Positions 34,373 through 42,597 of a stretch of DNA of 64,000 nucleotides are shown here, in pieces. The stretch lies in NCBI RefSeq assembly GCF_015291885.1, contig NZ_CP036186.1, forward strand, positions 3,685,001-3,749,000, read 5' to 3'. Source of the DNA: Stutzerimonas stutzeri. Lineage in GTDB: Bacteria; Pseudomonadota; Gammaproteobacteria; Pseudomonadales; Pseudomonadaceae. The notes under the pieces are model-generated. The model worked only from the letters and a program-made list of their open reading frames with translations, did not search any database and was not told the DNA's origin. Both the position numbers and the translations under genes were made by a program. Position 1 is the stretch's first letter; each line of letters starts with the position of its first letter.

Positions 34373-34894
34373 ATGAAAACCAGACATAGCACCGGCTATA
34401 CCCTGTTCGAATTGCTCATCGCGCTGGCCGTCTTCAGCATACTGATGGGCATTGCCATCCCAGCCGTCTCAGCCTGGCAGGAGCGCCAGCAGCTTCAGAG
34501 CCTGCAAGCAGGACTATTTCACATGACCAGCAAAGCCCGCTACCTGGCCATGACCAGCCACAACCGGGTCACCCTCTGCCCACTCACGCAACAGGGCTTA
34601 TGTCAGCAAAGCTGGAGCGGCAGCATCAGCAGCTTTACCGACATCAACGGCAACCGCCGTCTGGATGCCGGCGAGGATATCCTCGGCACGCTCTATTTAC
34701 CCGACAGCATCAGCCTCTACTGGCGGGGCATGATGCCGAACAATTCGATCCATTTCAGCAGCCAGGGCGTCACCTTCGTCAGCAACGGCACCATGAGCCT
34801 CTGCCCTGCAAGAGCTGGGGCCAGAACTGGCGCGATGGTCATCACCCGCCAAGGCCGGATAAGAGTATCGAGTGACGACGCCCGCTGCCCTTGA
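34373..34894 (+). CDS. fimT: Type IV pilus minor pilin FimT
   Basis: 173 residues. Prepilin peptidase site after the short basic leader: STGYTLFELLIALAVFSIL, with G at -1 and the conserved E5. A GspH/FimT-type C-terminal domain follows (ITRQGRIRVSS end). First of the minor pilin genes; 110 bp separate it from fimU, and that gap holds a separate promoter, so fimT may be transcribed on its own. In some bacteria FimT binds DNA for uptake; natural transformation is known in P. stutzeri, but the link here is inference. Confidence 0.9.
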   Translation: MKTRHSTGYTLFELLIALAVFSILMGIAIPAVSAWQERQQLQSLQAGLFHMTSKARYLAMTSHNRVTLCPLTQQGLCQQSWSGSISSFTDINGNRRLDAGEDILGTLYLPDSISLYWRGMMPNNSIHFSSQGVTFVSNGTMSLCPARAGARTGAMVITRQGRIRVSSDDARCP

Positions 34895-34928
34895 TGGCGC
34901 CTGGCGACCACTCACCCCTGGGAATGAA

Positions 34929-34976
34929 CCGGACGTCCGGACAAAACTTGATGAGCGATGGCAAGTGGCCAATGAT
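34929..34976 (+). promoter_or_regulatory. Promoter of fimU-pilVWX-pilY1-pilE with upstream palindrome
   Basis: TTGATG (34948-34953), 17-bp spacer, AATGAT (34971-34976), about 30 bp before the fimU ATG. A perfect palindrome CCGGACGTCCGG (34929-34940) ends 7 bp upstream of the -35, a place suited to an activator. In P. aeruginosa this operon is activated by AlgR, but the palindrome does not match the AlgR box CCGTTCGTC. Confidence 0.5.
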
Positions 34977-35004
34977 GCCACCCATATTGCAAGGACTCCG
35001 CAAG

Positions 35005-35520
35005 ATGAAGCAGCAAGCTGGATTCACCCTTATTGAACTGATGATTACCCTGGCATTGCTCGGAATCATCCTGGGCCTCGCGGTGCCAGCCATCAGCGAC
35101 TTCACCGTCAAGCAACGCGTCAGCTCGCAGGCCAATGAAATGATGCTCTCGCTGGCATTCGCAAGAAGTGAAGCCGTGAAGCGCAACGAGGATATCCGCC
35201 TCATTCCAAGCACGGGCACTGCCAGTGGCTGGAGTGACGGCTGGTGCGTAGGCCCGACCAGCATCGGCAACAACTGCGACCACGCCGACGTGATACGCGT
35301 CTTCAGCGGAACCCGCGGCGTGAGCATCACCAGCTTCAATACCGCCAACCCGCCAAGGTTCGTATTCAGACGAGATGGCACGCGCGAAGGCAATGTCGAT
35401 GCCGGGCTGAAAGTCACCTCCCCCCAGCTCGACGCCACCAGTGAAAGCGCACGCTGCATCACCTTGAACCCGCTCGGTCGTGCAGAAAGCGAAAAAGCAG
35501 CACGCGATGACGCCTGCTGA
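35005..35520 (+). CDS. fimU: Type IV pilus minor pilin FimU
   Basis: 171 residues. Class III leader of six residues, then [20 protein letters not shown] with E5; GspH domain after it, with the Cys pair CVGPTSIGNNC. The ATG at 35005 gives a proper prepilin leader; upstream in-frame ATGs would make an improbable 44-residue leader. AAGGA precedes it. First gene of the minor pilin operon; FimU, PilV, PilW and PilX prime pilus assembly with PilY1. Confidence 0.9.
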   Translation: MKQQAGFTLIELMITLALLGIILGLAVPAISDFTVKQRVSSQANEMMLSLAFARSEAVKRNEDIRLIPSTGTASGWSDGWCVGPTSIGNNCDHADVIRVFSGTRGVSITSFNTANPPRFVFRRDGTREGNVDAGLKVTSPQLDATSESARCITLNPLGRAESEKAARDDAC

Positions 35521-35536
35521 CAGACAAGGAACGTAT

Positions 35537-36163
35537 ATGAGCCCACAACCATGCAAGCAGCAGGGCGCCTCTCTGATAGAAGTCATGATTGCGCTGCTGA
35601 TTTTTACCGTCGGCCTGCTGGGCCTGGCCGCCATGCAGCTCAACGCATTGCAAAGCACAAGCGACAGCGGCCAGCGCTCGCAGGCGGCCTGGCTGATGAA
35701 CGACTTGGCCGAACGCATGCGCGCCAATCCTGGTGGATCGCTGGACAACTACCGGGCGGCTCCCAACTGTGCGGCACTTCCCGCCACTATCTGCGCCGAT
35801 TACTACAATCCCGCCACCAACGCCAAGGTAAACGCAGCCAATTGCAGCAGCGAGCAGATGGCCGCGTTCGACCGCTGGGAGGCGCAGTGTAGCTACGCCG
35901 CCGTCGCCGCGCTGAATCCCAACGGCAACAACCGCTTCAATAGCCGAGACTTTCTGATAACCCCCGAAGATGACGCTCTCAGCCTGGATGGCGATGGAGA
36001 TCTGCGTATCAACTGGTTCAGCAAAGCGGCCAACAACAAGCCTTCGTTCTATCAGGAGCCAGAAGAGGACGATGAAGAAGAGGACGAAGGCGCGGAAGAG
36101 CCTGCGACTCCAGCCATCCAGCCATCCGAGCAGAGCTCTGCAACCGTGAGGATCGTCCGATGA
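35537..36163 (+). CDS. pilV: Type IV pilus minor pilin PilV
   Basis: 208 residues. Leader MSPQPCKQQG, then ASLIEVMIALLIFTVGLLG, with E5, as in PilV. The DLAERMRANP motif after the helix is typical. The C-terminal portion carries an unusual acidic tract (EEDDEEEDEGAEE, about residues 177-189) followed by a Pro/Ser stretch. Start at 35537 rather than the ATG inside fimU. Its stop overlaps the pilW start (ATGA). Confidence 0.9.
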   Translation: MSPQPCKQQGASLIEVMIALLIFTVGLLGLAAMQLNALQSTSDSGQRSQAAWLMNDLAERMRANPGGSLDNYRAAPNCAALPATICADYYNPATNAKVNAANCSSEQMAAFDRWEAQCSYAAVAALNPNGNNRFNSRDFLITPEDDALSLDGDGDLRINWFSKAANNKPSFYQEPEEDDEEEDEGAEEPATPAIQPSEQSSATVRIVR

Positions 36164-36966
36164 ACTCCCGCAAGGCCCAGGCCGGCCTCTCCATCGTCGA
36201 ACTGCTAGTGGCCCTGGTGATCAGCATGCTGCTGATGACCGGTGTCGTTCAGGTCTTTCTCGCCTCCAAACAGACCTACGCCAGCAACGAAGCGGCATCA
36301 CGCCTGCAGGAAAACGGGCGCTTCGCCCTGGAGTTCATTGCTCAGAGCACAAGGCATGCAGGCTATGTCGAGGCAGCCAACAATACGCTGGAAACACTCC
36401 CCAGACCCGTTTTGGGCCCAGACGATACGGCTTGCGGCAACCTCTGCAGCAGCCAGGGGACCGAGGACAATCCGGACGCTTCTGACAGTATCGCCTTTAG
36501 TTTTCAGCCCCGACTGCTGGATGGCGCGAGGAGAGACTGCCTAGGCAATACCAACATTGGCACGAGCAACATTGGGAATACCGATGTAATTGCCAACCAT
36601 TTTTTTATTGTAAATGAAGGCACAGAGCAATCTGCTTTGGCCTGCAATTCCCGTCATATACGGGAAAACACGGTAAGTAACGGCAGTGTGCTTGTAGAAG
36701 GCATAGACGCTCTGCAAGTCCAATACGGTATCGGCACCACCGGCACTGTAGCTCAATACGTCTCAGCTGATCGCGTAACTAACTGGAATAACGTACTAGC
36801 TGTTCGTATCGCCGTGTTGGCAAACTCCATAACTCAAGTAAACCCGGCTCCACCCGCTGACCGCCAGTACGTACTTTTGGACGCAGCACCGCTGAGTTTT
36901 GCAGACGGCAAGGCACGCCAAGTGTTTACCACGACCATTAAGCTCCGCAACACCGGAGAACCGTAA
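36160..36966 (+). CDS. pilW: Type IV pilus minor pilin PilW
   Basis: 268 residues. Leader ending in QAG, then LSIVELLVALVISMLLMTG, with E5. The large C-terminal domain has the PilW pattern (FALEFIAQSTRHAGY, several Cys). The second half (about 36540-36960) is clearly richer in A and T than the first, as if it had been exchanged. Overlaps pilV by 4 bp and is followed by pilX after 2 bp. Confidence 0.9.
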   Translation: MNSRKAQAGLSIVELLVALVISMLLMTGVVQVFLASKQTYASNEAASRLQENGRFALEFIAQSTRHAGYVEAANNTLETLPRPVLGPDDTACGNLCSSQGTEDNPDASDSIAFSFQPRLLDGARRDCLGNTNIGTSNIGNTDVIANHFFIVNEGTEQSALACNSRHIRENTVSNGSVLVEGIDALQVQYGIGTTGTVAQYVSADRVTNWNNVLAVRIAVLANSITQVNPAPPADRQYVLLDAAPLSFADGKARQVFTTTIKLRNTGEP

Positions 36967-36968
36967 CA

Positions 36969-37511
36969 ATGAATGCAACCCTTCGACGCCAGCAGACTGG
37001 CGCCACCTTGATCGTGGCCCTGGTGTTCCTTGTTGTACTTACCGTAGCGGGCATAACGGCCATGCAGTTTTCTACCCTTGAAGAGCGCATGGCCGGCAAC
37101 TCTCAATCACGCAACGCGGTATTCCAAGAAACACAGAACTTTATTCAGGAAAATCTTCTTGAACTCAACAAGGGCCAGGACGGCCGGATAACGCTGCAGA
37201 GCGCAATGAACGAAGGTCCGTATAACAACGGCAGTGGCAGTTATCCCATCAGGCTGACGCTCGCTGAACTTGAACAACTTGGGCTACCGCAAACCAGTGG
37301 CCGAGCCGTCGATGCTCCTGTCAGCCCAGAACAGGGCTCAGCCGTCATCCGCAAAACCCATAACCCAACACTCTGTGACTACGATGCGGACAACGCATCT
37401 GGACAGATCATCGAATGCTCGAAGTTCGAAATCCAGGTTCGTTCCGAACTACCCAACGGCGCCTATTCCGATCAGTCCCAAGGCATCGTTTTTGAAAACG
37501 TCAGGAGCTAG
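36969..37511 (+). CDS. pilX: Type IV pilus minor pilin PilX
   Basis: 180 residues. Leader MNATLRRQQTG, then ATLIVALVFLVVLTVAGITAMQ; position 5 is not Glu, which is typical for PilX-like pilins that sit at the pilus tip. The STLEERMAGNSQSRNAVFQ motif is the PilX_N signature. Two Cys near the C-terminus probably form a loop. Followed after 9 bp by a small secreted-protein gene. Confidence 0.88.
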   Translation: MNATLRRQQTGATLIVALVFLVVLTVAGITAMQFSTLEERMAGNSQSRNAVFQETQNFIQENLLELNKGQDGRITLQSAMNEGPYNNGSGSYPIRLTLAELEQLGLPQTSGRAVDAPVSPEQGSAVIRKTHNPTLCDYDADNASGQIIECSKFEIQVRSELPNGAYSDQSQGIVFENVRS

Positions 37512-37520
37512 GAAGCCGCC

Positions 37521-37847
37521 ATGAACAAGCTATTTGCAATCCTCGCCCTGACCGCAAGCGCCGCTGTTCCTACTATCGGGCACAGCGCCGAAGATCCCAA
37601 CACCTACGCACCGCTGGAAATGACCACAGTCACCATCCGCATGACAGGCGGCCACCCCTACGGCCAGCTATACCCCTGCCCCGAAGGCTGTGCATTGCGC
37701 CTGCTGCCCTTCACGCCGGATGCACGTATCTATGTTCAGGGCGTACCGAAGTCAGCCCGTGAGTTGCAAGACGGCCAGAAACTGGTCGGCACGGTGTTCC
37801 TCACCAGCCAGCCAATCGATGCCATAGATCGCATACACGCCGAATGA
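37521..37847 (+). CDS. Small exported protein between pilX and pilY1 (possible PilY2 counterpart)
   Basis: 108 residues with a clear signal peptide (about 1-22, cut near GHSA) and one Cys pair (PCPEGC). The second half (DARIYVQGVPKSARELQDGQKLVGTVFL) looks like a small beta-barrel with a property-of-residue plus value theme seen in PilY2-type proteins. In P. aeruginosa pilY2 lies after pilY1; here no gene stands between pilY1 and pilE, so this may be its displaced counterpart. Overlaps or abuts pilY1, in the operon. I do not recognise it with certainty. Confidence 0.7.
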   Translation: MNKLFAILALTASAAVPTIGHSAEDPNTYAPLEMTTVTIRMTGGHPYGQLYPCPEGCALRLLPFTPDARIYVQGVPKSARELQDGQKLVGTVFLTSQPIDAIDRIHAE

Positions 37848-37861
37848 AAGGACTCTTGAAC

Positions 37862-40800
37862 ATGAATATCCGCCCATACGCGCTTTTGCTTGGCAGTTTC
37901 TGTTATATCGGGCTTTCCCTGCAAACCGCGCTTGCCGATGACACAGAAATCTATGTCAGTCGCAAGCTATCGGAAGACCAGCAGATACGTCCCAACTTGC
38001 TGTTCGTGATCGACAACTCTGGCTCCATGCTGTCCGCCGTCCCCGGAACCAAATGCGCCGATGGAGATAGGGACTACCCAAACCGCTGCGACCGTAGGAC
38101 CAATCAAAAGACCAGAATGCAGGTTGTAAAGGACGTAACAAACGAACTCATTGACGAGTTGAGACTAAGTGACGATGTCAATGTTGGCCTGATGCATTTC
38201 GATACAGCGGTTAGATACAGCGGCCGCAATATCGATTACTCAAAAAGCTATCAGGGCGGCATGGTGGCCATTCCTGTTGGACGCATTAGCAGTAATGCCG
38301 ACGCACTCAAGGAAGAAATTAACAAACTCTACGCCCTGACCAACACTCCACTATCCGAAACCTACTATGAAGCTGCCCTGTATATGAGAGGGGAACAGCC
38401 AAAATTTGGCGATGACACTCAGGCTGGCTATGAAGATGGGAAAGGCTCTAAAAGAGAGAACAAACCCAGCGTACCGGGTTCGAAAAACGGCAATAGATAC
38501 AAAAGCCCCATCGAATATTCCTGCCAGAAAAGCAATATCATCCTGCTGACGGACGGCGAGCCGACTTACGATAACGCCGCCAACAATGATATTCGCTCAC
38601 TGATCAGCACCCCCGGCGAAACCAACACACAATATCTGCCCGCCACCTGCCGTAACCCTGGTACCAGCAGCACTAGCCGTAGCGGCGAGTGCATGCCCCA
38701 CCTCGCCGAGCACCTTGCCAACCAAGATATCAGCAGTAGTCAACCCGGCAAGCAAACCGTCAACACCTATACCATCGGTTTCGCTACCAACCAGACCCTG
38801 CTGCAGAACACTGCCAACGCTGGCAATGGTCGCTACTTCACCACGGACAATACATCCGGCCTGGTCGATGCTCTCAAGTCGATCCTCGTGGAAATCCTCG
38901 CGGAAAATACGACATTCGCCACGCCCAGTGTTGCAGTAAGTGCCTACAACAACCTGGGCTACCGCAACGACCTATATTACGCCCTGTTCCGTCCGGCCGA
39001 AGGCGCACGCTGGGTCGGCAACGTCAAACGCTACCGAGCCGAAACCACGACGGATGCCAACGGCAATACCATTACCCAGGTCGTGGACAAAAACGGTCAG
39101 CCGGCCATCGACGAGTCCACCGGCTTCTTCCGAGACAACTCCTCCAGCTTCTGGTCCAGCCTTGATGGCCGCGATGTGGAAAAAGGCGGTGTGGCCGGCA
39201 CGTTGAACGAGCCGGCCAACCGCAAGATTTTCACCTGGACAGCAGCAGACCGCAGCCCCAGCGCCAGTACGGGCAGCGAGGCCCTGTCCAGCCAGCTGAA
39301 TGAGAACAACAGCGCCCTGACCCAGGCACTGCTCGGAGTCAACAGTAGCGAAGCCAGAACAAAAGCCATCCAGTGGGGCCGCGGCCAGAACCCGGACAGC
39401 CCGGCCCAGGCCCGCCGGCAACTGGCGGACGTACTGCACAACGAGCCCCGTCTGGCCGCCTACAAGACCGATGAGGACCTGGAGCGGGCTGGCACTGCGA
39501 CTTCACCCGAACAGCTCTATATGTTCTTCGGCACCAACGAAGGCTTTATCCACGCCGTGGACCCCAGCAACGGTCAGGAAAAATTCGCCTTTATCCCCAA
39601 GGAATTGCTGCCCAACCTGAGCGCCTACTATCAGAACCCAAAAGGCTCGGACCAGAAACGCTACGGCATGGATGGCCAGTTCAACCTCTGGGTTGAATAC
39701 GGTGACCTAGATATCAATGCCAAAACCCGCAGCATCAGCAAGAGCTACCTCTATGCCGGCATGCGCCGGGGCGGCAAGAACTACTACGCGCTCGATGTGA
39801 CGAATATTGATCAACCAAAACTCAAATGGGTGATCAAGGGCGGCGCAACACCCGGTTTCGAAAAGCTGGGACAAACCTGGTCCACGCCCAAACTGGCCAA
39901 TATCAAGCTCAACGGCACGCAAACCAAGGTGCTGGTATTCACCGGCGGCTATGACCCACAACAGGATAACGACAGCCCCAACACACCCCTTGCCGGCGAT
40001 ACCCAGGGCAATGCGCTGTATATCGTCAATGCCGAAACCGGCCAGTTGATCTGGCGAGCCGGGCACAGCTCCGAGACAGGCGCCAACCTGAAGCTGGCCG
40101 AGATGACTCACAGCATGCCGGCTGATCCGGTGATCATCGATGCCAACGGCGACGGCCTGGCTGACATCATTTATGCCGTCGATGCTCGCGCCCAGGTGTT
40201 CCGCTTCGATATCGACAATGCCAGTAGCTCAGCCAGCGCCCTCGCCACCGGTGGGCGCATCGCCAAGCTGGGTGGCGACACCGCCCTGGACAATCGCCGT
40301 TTCTTCAGCATGCCGGACGTGGCCATGGTCCGGGAGCGTGGCGGCAAGAGTTACTTTGCCATCGCCATCGGCTCCGGCTACCGCTCCCACCCGCTCAACG
40401 AAGACACCATCGACCGTTTCTATGTGCTTCAGGATGGCCCACTGTTCAGCAAGCCGAAAGATGGTATTTACACCACCCTCACCGAGGACGACCTGCTGGA
40501 CGTTTCCAGCGTGGATCTCACTGATGCTGAAGCCGCAGGGATTCAGGAGGAAATCGCCGAAGCCGAAGCCGCCATCGCCGCGCTGAACCAGGCGGTCGCC
40601 GCTGCACGCGATGCCTTCAATGCCTACAAGGAGTCCTCAGGCTTTACCTCCAAATACAACGCCATGCTGCAGGCCAACAACGCTGCCAACAGCCTGCAGG
40701 CAGAGATCGATGCGTTGATGGCAAGCGATCCCTATCTGCAAGCTCATGCAGCCGAAAGCAGTGAGCAGAGCAAGCTGCAGCAGGGGCTGCTGGAAAGCCA

Positions 40801-42181
40801 AAACACCCTGAAGGCACTGCAGGATGCGATTGCCGCTGCCGCCCCAGACCTGGCGGACAAGGAGGACGCGTACGAAGCGGCCAAGGCACACTTAGCTACC
40901 ATTGATGAGGATGACCCTACCTATGCAGACGCTAAGCAGGCCTATGAGAGCGCCAAAGGCGACTGGGACGCTGCAGACGGCAAGCAAACAGCGCGCTCTG
41001 AGCAAAGAACAAAGCTGGCTGAGATCTACAGCACCCTGATCAGCCTGCAGGCCGAACTGAACTCCGCTTACCAGGGGATCCTGGATCAGGAGCGGGCGAT
41101 CCTCGATGCGGTGGCAGCCTCAGCGAGTGAATCCACCGTCGATAACTTGCGCTCCGGGTTGGAAACCTTGAACCAAGATTATGGCAACCATCCCGCCGCT
41201 CTCAAACGTGATGGCCTCAACGCAGCCGAAGGCAGCAGCACCCAACTACTGAGCGCACTGAATCGGCTCAAAGATGCCATCCATAGGGACGCCGCCAGCC
41301 AAATCGACGGCGTATTGGCCGATCTGAGCACACAGCTTTCGCCGCTTGCGCCCTCGCTCGTCGAGTCCGAGCTGCTGGCACGCGAGGAGGCGGCCAAACA
41401 CACGGAGCTTGCTGCAAAAGCCGCCAACCTTGAAGGCAACGTGGATTTTGCAGCGGAGCTGGAATCGCAACGGCTTGCGCAGTCAGGGCAGGCCTCAGCC
41501 GCCCAGGCAGAAGCCAATGACATCGCTTCCGGCCCCTACCAAGCGTCTTCCGCCCTGCTGAACGCCGAGCAGCTGGCTGCGGCCAAAGCGCTTTACGGCA
41601 ACGACCTGACGATGTTCGAGGCCTATCAGTTCCTGCTCGACCAGGCGCAGTTGGCCGTAACCGACAGCGAAGATGGCGTGCCGGCGCTGCGCAAGGAGAT
41701 CAACCAACTCTATGGCCAACTGGTCCCTGGCAACAGCTACACGCCTAACCCGTCCTTGCTGGCTGGCAGCAAGGGCTGGTTCATGCGCCTACCCAAGGGC
41801 GAAAAGGTGTTGTCGTCCCCGCTGATCTTCAGGGGCGCACTGTTCTTCACCACGTTCAGCCCTCGTGGCGAGACCATCACCACGTGCGGCCCCGACGTCG
41901 GCCGCGGGCGAGCCTATGCGCTGAATCTTCGCGACGCCAGCGCGATCCTCGCGGTGAACGATGCGCCCATCCGCAGCTATGCGCTGCTGCGCTCCGGCAT
42001 TCCGCCAGCGCCAACGGTGCTGTTCAACGAAGACGGACCGCCACGTGTCATCATCGGCACCGAAGTGCTGAACGACCGCCCCAAGGACGGTGATGGCGAT
42101 GAACCGGAGTGCATCGGCGGCGTCGGCTTCTGCGACAAGGATAGAAGCCCGGTCAGCAAAACCTACTGGAGAGAGAACTGA
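37862..42181 (+). CDS. pilY1: Type IV pilus tip adhesin PilY1, enlarged
   Basis: 1439 residues against about 1160 in P. aeruginosa. Signal peptide to about residue 25; von Willebrand A domain (about 45-350) with MIDAS DNSGSM and TDGEPT; C-terminal PilY1 propeller from about 380 with the Ca2+ loop DANGDGLAD near 760-768. From about residue 885 to 1300 an Ala/Glu/Gln-rich coiled-coil block interrupts the propeller, which resumes at [16 protein letters not shown] and ends normally in KTYWREN. ATG at 37862 has AAAGGA 9 nt upstream; the ATG at 37844 overlapping the previous stop is the alternative. Known role: tip adhesin, mechanosensing and pilus priming with the minor pilins. Confidence 0.93.
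40513..41763 (+). other. Region of pilY1 encoding a long coiled-coil insertion
   Basis: About 417 codons without any propeller motif, dominated by Ala, Glu, Gln, Leu and Ser in heptad-like order (for example [20 protein letters not shown] and [20 protein letters not shown]). Flanks are normal PilY1 sequence on both sides (TEDDLLD before, [14 protein letters not shown] after). Base composition resembles the rest of the gene. Confidence 0.85.
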
Positions 42182-42597
42182 TGCGACACCAGAGCGGCTT
42201 TACGCTGATCGAACTGATGATTGTGGTGGCGGTGATCGGCATTTTGGCCGCTATCGCCTACCCCAACTATCAGCAGTACCAACTCAAGGCTGGCCGCTCC
42301 GACGGCCATGCCAAACTGACACAGCTGATGCAAATGCAGGAGCGGCTTTATTCGCAGAATCAAACCTACAGTACTGATCTGGGTGCCGGCGCCAACACTG
42401 CAGTGCTCAGCGATGAGCAGCGCTACAGCATTACAGCCGAGGCCTGCGCCGCTGGCACGCCACTAGCACGTTGCGTGCGGCTGGTCGCCACTGCCATCAA
42501 CCAGCAGGTTGCCGATACCCAGTGTGGCAATCTCATCCTCACCAGCCGGGGTGAAAAGCTCATATCGGGGACAGGGACACGGGAGAGCTGCTGGTAA
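42181..42597 (+). CDS. pilE: Type IV pilus minor pilin PilE
   Basis: 138 residues. Leader MRHQSG, then [24 protein letters not shown], the standard type IVa pilin helix with E5, and a small C-terminal domain with Cys pairs near the end. Its ATG overlaps the pilY1 stop (TGATG). Small size and position identify PilE rather than the major pilin PilA. Confidence 0.93.

Follow-up and report, generated by a model that had tools for sequence, protein, structure and literature searches.

Here we show that the PilY1 protein encoded in a 64,000-nucleotide stretch of Stutzerimonas stutzeri DNA (hereafter the window) carries a long, predicted helical insert within its beta-propeller, and that this insert recurs in a lineage of related proteins. 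The changing length and variable end of a hairpin in the insert are the main point of this work and go beyond the original prediction, which had described a single long block. The explanation that we favour, with a probability of roughly 0.55, is that the hairpin forms a lateral spike whose length and tip have diversified and which would project at the pilus tip.

PilY1 is held to prime pilus assembly, to adhere, and to sense surfaces, which raises the question of how these tasks are kept apart within a single tip protein. Spike length and spike end differ widely between very similar relatives, which therefore provide a natural series for testing the role of the spike: one module ranging from none to ~530 residues, in some pairs of proteins that are 98-99% identical elsewhere. 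With such a series one could ask if adhesion, DNA uptake, phage sensitivity, or surface sensing depends on the reach of the spike or on the identity of its tip. It also suggests a fast route of antiparallel hairpin evolution, in which one tip-spanning deletion, or matched heptad gaps, would change length while the fold is kept.

The window pilY1 belongs to a cassette with the order fimT-fimU-pilV-pilW-pilX-(108-aa ORF)-pilY1-pilE, in which the following features were identified:

34373..37511, + strand: minor pilin genes fimT (34373), fimU (~35011), pilV (35534), pilW (36160), and pilX (36969) (Pfam GspH, Tt1218-like, PilW, PilX_N; TIGR02523 PilV)
37521..37847, + strand: 108-aa ORF between pilX and pilY1, no family match
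37862..42181, + strand: pilY1, 1439 aa, putative type IVa pilus tip adhesin and priming protein (PF05567 above cut-off)
37862..39454, + strand: PilY1 N-terminal region, aa 1-531, weak VWA match (PF13519, 22.5 bits, under the cut-off of 27)
39455..40513, + strand: first part of the beta-propeller, aa 532-884 (strands in the model, block pLDDT 50-95; 3HX6 match)
41771..42178, + strand: remainder of the propeller and C-terminus, aa 1304-1439 (model; 3HX6 match)
42181..42597, + strand: pilE-like pilin, last gene of the cassette (Pfam ComP_DUS and N_methyl)

The PF05567 propeller domain, together with co-encoding with fimU-pilV-pilW-pilX and pilE, places the protein among the PilY1/PilC tip adhesins. 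An N-terminal VWA domain is common, though not universal, in this group, and the VWA match is also listed for close relatives of the window protein (e.g. P0003). The 108-aa ORF has a likely signal peptide, as judged by eye, and a similar ORF lies beside pilY1 in L051-L054; in P. aeruginosa the small pilY2 is located after pilY1. The cassette lies between thiO and ispH-fkpB-lspA-ileS, gene names that we assign from sequence and order. The same flanks surround the cassette in 17 of 19 insert-bearing loci, the exceptions being L066 and L069, which are without the downstream genes in the fetched piece, L069 also being without thiO. Six genomes of the genus that are without the insert were compared. 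In four of them, the flanking genes are 80-98% identical to those of the window while the propeller is 28-31% identical, and because of this disparity the minor-pilin/pilY1 cassette (34373-42597) seems to have been replaced as a unit at a fixed thiO-ispH locus within the genus. In the remaining two, the cassette is elsewhere or without these flanks. This resembles a report on Acinetobacter baumannii, in which the cassette that includes the ComC gene has undergone at least two replacements at a fixed place (PMC10374093).

Comparison with relatives sets the limits of the insert at aa 885-1303, a stretch rich in Ala, Glu, Gln, and Leu, and the ~415-residue coiled-coil block inside the propeller that had been predicted is borne out by model helices and a heptad period. 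The possibility that the block folds as normal propeller blades was rejected, as structure prediction shows helices. Its parts are as follows:

40514..41770, + strand: helical insert, aa 885-1303, about 419 aa (model; short linker in insert-free homologues)
40523..40726, + strand: outgoing base arm A, aa 888-955, model helices 357-394 and 397-424 (model; hydrophobic period 3.4)
40736..40900, + strand: outgoing distal arm B, aa 959-1013, model 428-482 (model; variable length in homologues)
40901..40921, + strand: hairpin tip, aa 1014-1020, model 483-489 (model loop; midpoint helix breaker; tip region of lowest identity)
40922..41116, + strand: returning distal arm B', aa 1021-1085, model 490-554 (model)
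41129..41380, + strand: small mid domain of short helices, aa 1090-1173, model 559-642 (model)
41387..41527, + strand: returning base arm A', aa 1176-1222, model 645-691 (model; second model)
41564..41722, + strand: conserved base helices beside the propeller, aa 1235-1287, model 704-756 (model; conservation)

We consider it highly probable that the core of the insert adopts the predicted fold of an antiparallel coiled-coil hairpin. Both models show a pair of long helices connected through a short midpoint loop, and the sequence agrees (29 of 34 segments, see below); the second model breaks the helix where predicted and contains a 47-residue helix matching A', in the same order. Arms A, B, and B' of the window have a period of 3.4-3.5 with strong hydrophobics, A' is without a clear peak, and single-sequence periodicity of the window insert is weak when Ala is counted. 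A structure search matched the second model, in its tip portion, to known hairpins, and the two arms may pack against each other. Since the hairpin leaves the propeller and returns to it, it would form a side spike rather than an in-line stalk; the earlier suggestion of a stalk carrying the adhesin outward does not hold in that form, the N-terminal VWA-like region not being on the hairpin. At 1.5 A per residue, and assuming collinear arms, the spike is estimated at ~19 nm in the window, with the longest forms reaching something on the order of 50 nm. Alternatively, the hairpin might tune surface sensing mechanically, as a stiff lever or as a fuse that unfolds under force, given the force-dependent behaviour of P. 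aeruginosa PilY1 in single-molecule work (PMC11891296) and the fact that coiled-coil hairpins act as levers elsewhere, the dynein stalk being among the structure matches. We judge this improbable, however, as a side loop need not bear load when the propeller and N-terminal region are pulled apart, and near-identical proteins have very different hairpin lengths.

No known sequence family was found for the insert at Pfam cut-off (DUF4859, 15.5 vs 22.6), or for a longer form, for which Foldseek likewise returned nothing at E <= 0.001. A PDB profile search gave a weak, helical match to Nesprin-2 over part of the insert (E 0.0085). The receptor-binding hairpin of colicin E (2B5U, 2YSU), an unrelated protein from another setting, is 15-19% identical and similar in arrangement, and enterococcal PrgA (6Z9L), from a Gram-positive source, superposes loosely. 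P. aeruginosa PilY1 (3HX6) is ~21-23% identical to the window PilY1 over the matched part; its 486-residue solved chain was matched on both sides of the window insert and therefore contains no block of such size. Among PilY1-type tip adhesins, A. baumannii ComC also has an inserted finger-like protrusion; that finger belongs to the N-terminal VWA domain and bears a Tyr-rich motif, whereas the predicted hairpin of the window lineage is helical, interrupts the propeller, and varies widely in length (PMC10374093). A survey of myxobacterial PilY1 classes resembles the window lineage in showing a conserved propeller with changing attached domains, the variation being reported in N-terminal domains (PMC13190605); the words insertion, helical, and coiled are absent from its main text. 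The original prediction that no PilY1 with this architecture had been described is not contradicted by text searches of open papers on PilY1 and pilus tips, most subscription papers being outside this scope: no coiled-coil insert in the propeller is described in the available parts of PMC13190605, PMC11891296, PMC10374093, PMC7541494, PMC11841053, and PMC7726212.

In a first protein search, 76 proteins including the window's own matched aa 870-1320 at E <= 1e-3, among the 7992 candidates sharing most words; a second search scored the 7995 candidates sharing most words, and the best 120 of its 2802 matches were used. The 129 proteins pooled from both searches have 191-892 aa between the propeller flanks; they are the nearest relatives, and the presence of the insert in all 129 is uninformative about the rest. 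In the family, the propeller was matched at E <= 1e-10 in 212 of 398 genomes, 36 of which (30 plus six more) were checked for the insert. It is present in the 20 best, down to E 5e-115 (19 measured, and L007, with 729 aa between flank motifs in its larger piece L055), and absent in 16 of the 36. The next ten Pseudomonadaceae genomes, from E 1.4e-75, have only 4-21 aa at the insert site, in line with the predicted short linker. Two of 56 genomes of the genus carry the insert, the other 54 being without an insert match. In the class, 13 of 369 genomes matched; among the places listed, the window's own alone spans the whole profile, and in the 12 further genomes the listed matches are confined to the propeller flank, at profile positions 1-56. 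An insert private to the window genome was rejected, relatives carrying it, as was one universal in PilY1, in view of insert-free homologues in the family, genus, and class searches. The architecture belongs to a lineage in 20 of 398 family genomes rather than to a single odd protein. Named carriers, taken from a pattern search in which relatives made up 10 of 50 matches, include Stutzerimonas stutzeri SD25545, Pseudomonas composti, P. alcaligenes, and P. flexibilis, as well as Atopomonas sediminilitoris, whose match is partial. A quick tree built from 77 propeller rows places all 64 insert-bearing rows beyond one branch (SH-aLRT 94, no bootstrap); the outgroups in this tree have long branches. 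A composition count of helix-like 60-mers was discarded, having also flagged Ser/Thr/Asn-rich places in insert-free L071 and L074. One metagenome-assembled Pseudomonas (L039:1-2067) has an in-frame stop in its PilY1 insert, either decay or a sequencing error.

For alignment of the inserts, 96 of the 129 rows were kept by word sharing. Length changes mostly at model residues 460-510, and added residues peak equally on either side of the tip loop (means of 32.5 before and 32.1 after). In all rows but P0096, which lacks it, the segment between anchors at model residues 450 and 520 measures 14 to 531 aa (95 of 96 rows). The correlation between N-side and C-side lengths is 0.99 and is alignment-dependent. 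The tip was also located with the inner alignment ignored, as the worst helix-forming 9-mer of each segment, excluding segments of <50 aa (24 of 96) and keeping 34 of the remaining 72 as non-redundant. With a centre of 0.515 and a tolerance of 0.045, both chosen after the tip positions from the alignment were known, the worst 9-mer fell at the midpoint in 61 of 72 segments and 29 of 34 non-redundant ones, compared with a mean of 3.1 and a maximum of 10 of 34 for shuffled segments (2000 sets). In 62 arms of long forms the hydrophobic period peaks at 3.50 (power 3.4 vs 1.0), the arm segments being 35% Ala and 14% Thr. Of 39 rows with short forms, 22 have a 12-residue tip and arms of 30/24, 37/31, or 44/38 residues, each step adding a heptad to both arms. 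The remaining 17 depart from this series, either in the tip (0, 7, 11, or 13 residues) or in having a single uneven arm.

That the length differences stem from assembly or gene calling in a repetitive stretch is highly improbable. While many members are metagenome-derived and one long form has degenerate Ala-rich DNA repeats, TRF arrays are merely 15-19 bp in the two genes tried, lengths also differ among proteins encoded on chromosome-sized NCBI contigs (P0078, 444 aa; P0098, 677 aa; P0100, 627 aa), and tips remain central throughout the series. On the same TRF result we reject the idea that length changes arise from tandem DNA repeats. The window contains one 15-nt repeat pair and L055 degenerate repeats.

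Eighteen pairs among the 129 proteins have propellers at least 0.97 identical, C-terminal parts at least 0.95 identical, and hairpins differing by at least 14 aa, and all were aligned. Four differ by a single gap inside the insert, all identities being those of aligned residues: P0055 (Pseudomonas sp. TTU2014-080ASC) vs P0078 (Ectopseudomonas mendocina), 98.1% identical with one 69-aa gap; P0112 vs P0113, 98.7% identical with one 221-aa gap; P0114 vs P0115, 98.0% identical with one 220-aa gap; and P0096 vs P0105, 94.4% identical over aligned residues with one 492-aa gap, larger than the hairpin. Another five (two sets of related rows) have two 28-aa gaps of four heptads, one per arm, with small gaps beside them, and nine have several uneven gaps. 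P0096 has a 191-aa insert without the distal hairpin; because it nests among long forms in the tree and is 94% identical to P0105, the hairpin may at times be lost whole. A DAAQA repeat flanks the 221-aa gap of P0112/P0113, and P0055/P0078 is without such a clear repeat.

Divergence is greatest at the tip and in the mid domain. In 187 pairs with propellers at least 0.93 identical, gaps being scored as differences, both propeller parts average 0.96 identity and the base 0.91-0.93; the N-terminal region averages 0.84, the mid domain 0.75, and the tip 0.54. The mid domain is 39-46% identical to that of some relatives with propellers 90-99% identical. P0001 and P0006 are 99% identical in the propeller and 100% in the first base region and C-terminus, but identity drops to 62% for A', 41% for the mid domain, and 29% for the tip region, a mosaic that exchange between alleles would explain more easily than drift. 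Between P0001 and P0005 the tip region is 74% alike and the other regions from aa 532 on 97-100%. For the window vs G138, the propeller has a dN/dS of 0.06-0.07, compared with 0.61 for the tip and 0.13-0.29 for other parts of the insert, A' not being computable because synonymous sites are saturated; by these ratios the insert is relaxed or diversified, and dN/dS does not indicate positive selection.

Such relaxation is what would be expected had the linker simply taken a helical insert that drifted in length with little function, the propeller being indifferent, and forms with almost no distal hairpin do exist (P0055, P0112, P0115, P0096). This reading is possible, though not favoured: the heptad period and midpoint tip are maintained over 52-531 aa, the base is more conserved than other insert parts (77 and 82%, window vs G138), and a 99% propeller with a 29% tip region does not easily arise from slow drift alone. 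It is rather unlikely that phages or predators using the pilus tip select against common spike forms, so that the spike serves as a decoy or in evasion; the tip region is indeed the most divergent, and the cassettes found at this locus vary strongly across the genus, but evasion alone leaves the length polymorphism unexplained.

We propose instead that a short propeller linker grew, most simply once, in one Pseudomonadaceae lineage, into a helical domain. This would comprise a conserved base by the propeller and a small mid domain, with an antiparallel coiled-coil hairpin at the distal end that closes in a short loop. The hairpin would be a side spike of adjustable length, altered by one gap across the tip or by matched gaps in both arms, with the tip and mid domain varying most even where propellers are almost identical. 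The spike would most likely project from the pilus-tip complex with its variable end facing a surface, partner cell, phage, or predator, and may act as a reach and specificity element alongside conserved priming and propeller functions. The chances that the spike is exposed and its end under changing pressure seem to us about even. A variant in which it is a probe working while the pilus is retracted, threading the secretin and reaching or passing the outer membrane before pilus assembly, strikes us as improbable; such a probe would sense contact directly or act as a gate in the channel, and its hairpin would be as long as the envelope and capsule require.

Variation outside the insert was also observed. 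The insert-free L077-L080, L082, and L083 have PilY1 open frames of 1557-1616 aa, presumably due to the N-terminal part. Gaps of 11-12 aa separate P0001 from P0005 in N-terminal loops (window ~38040-38270, ~aa 60-135), the aligned residues of the two proteins being 95% identical.
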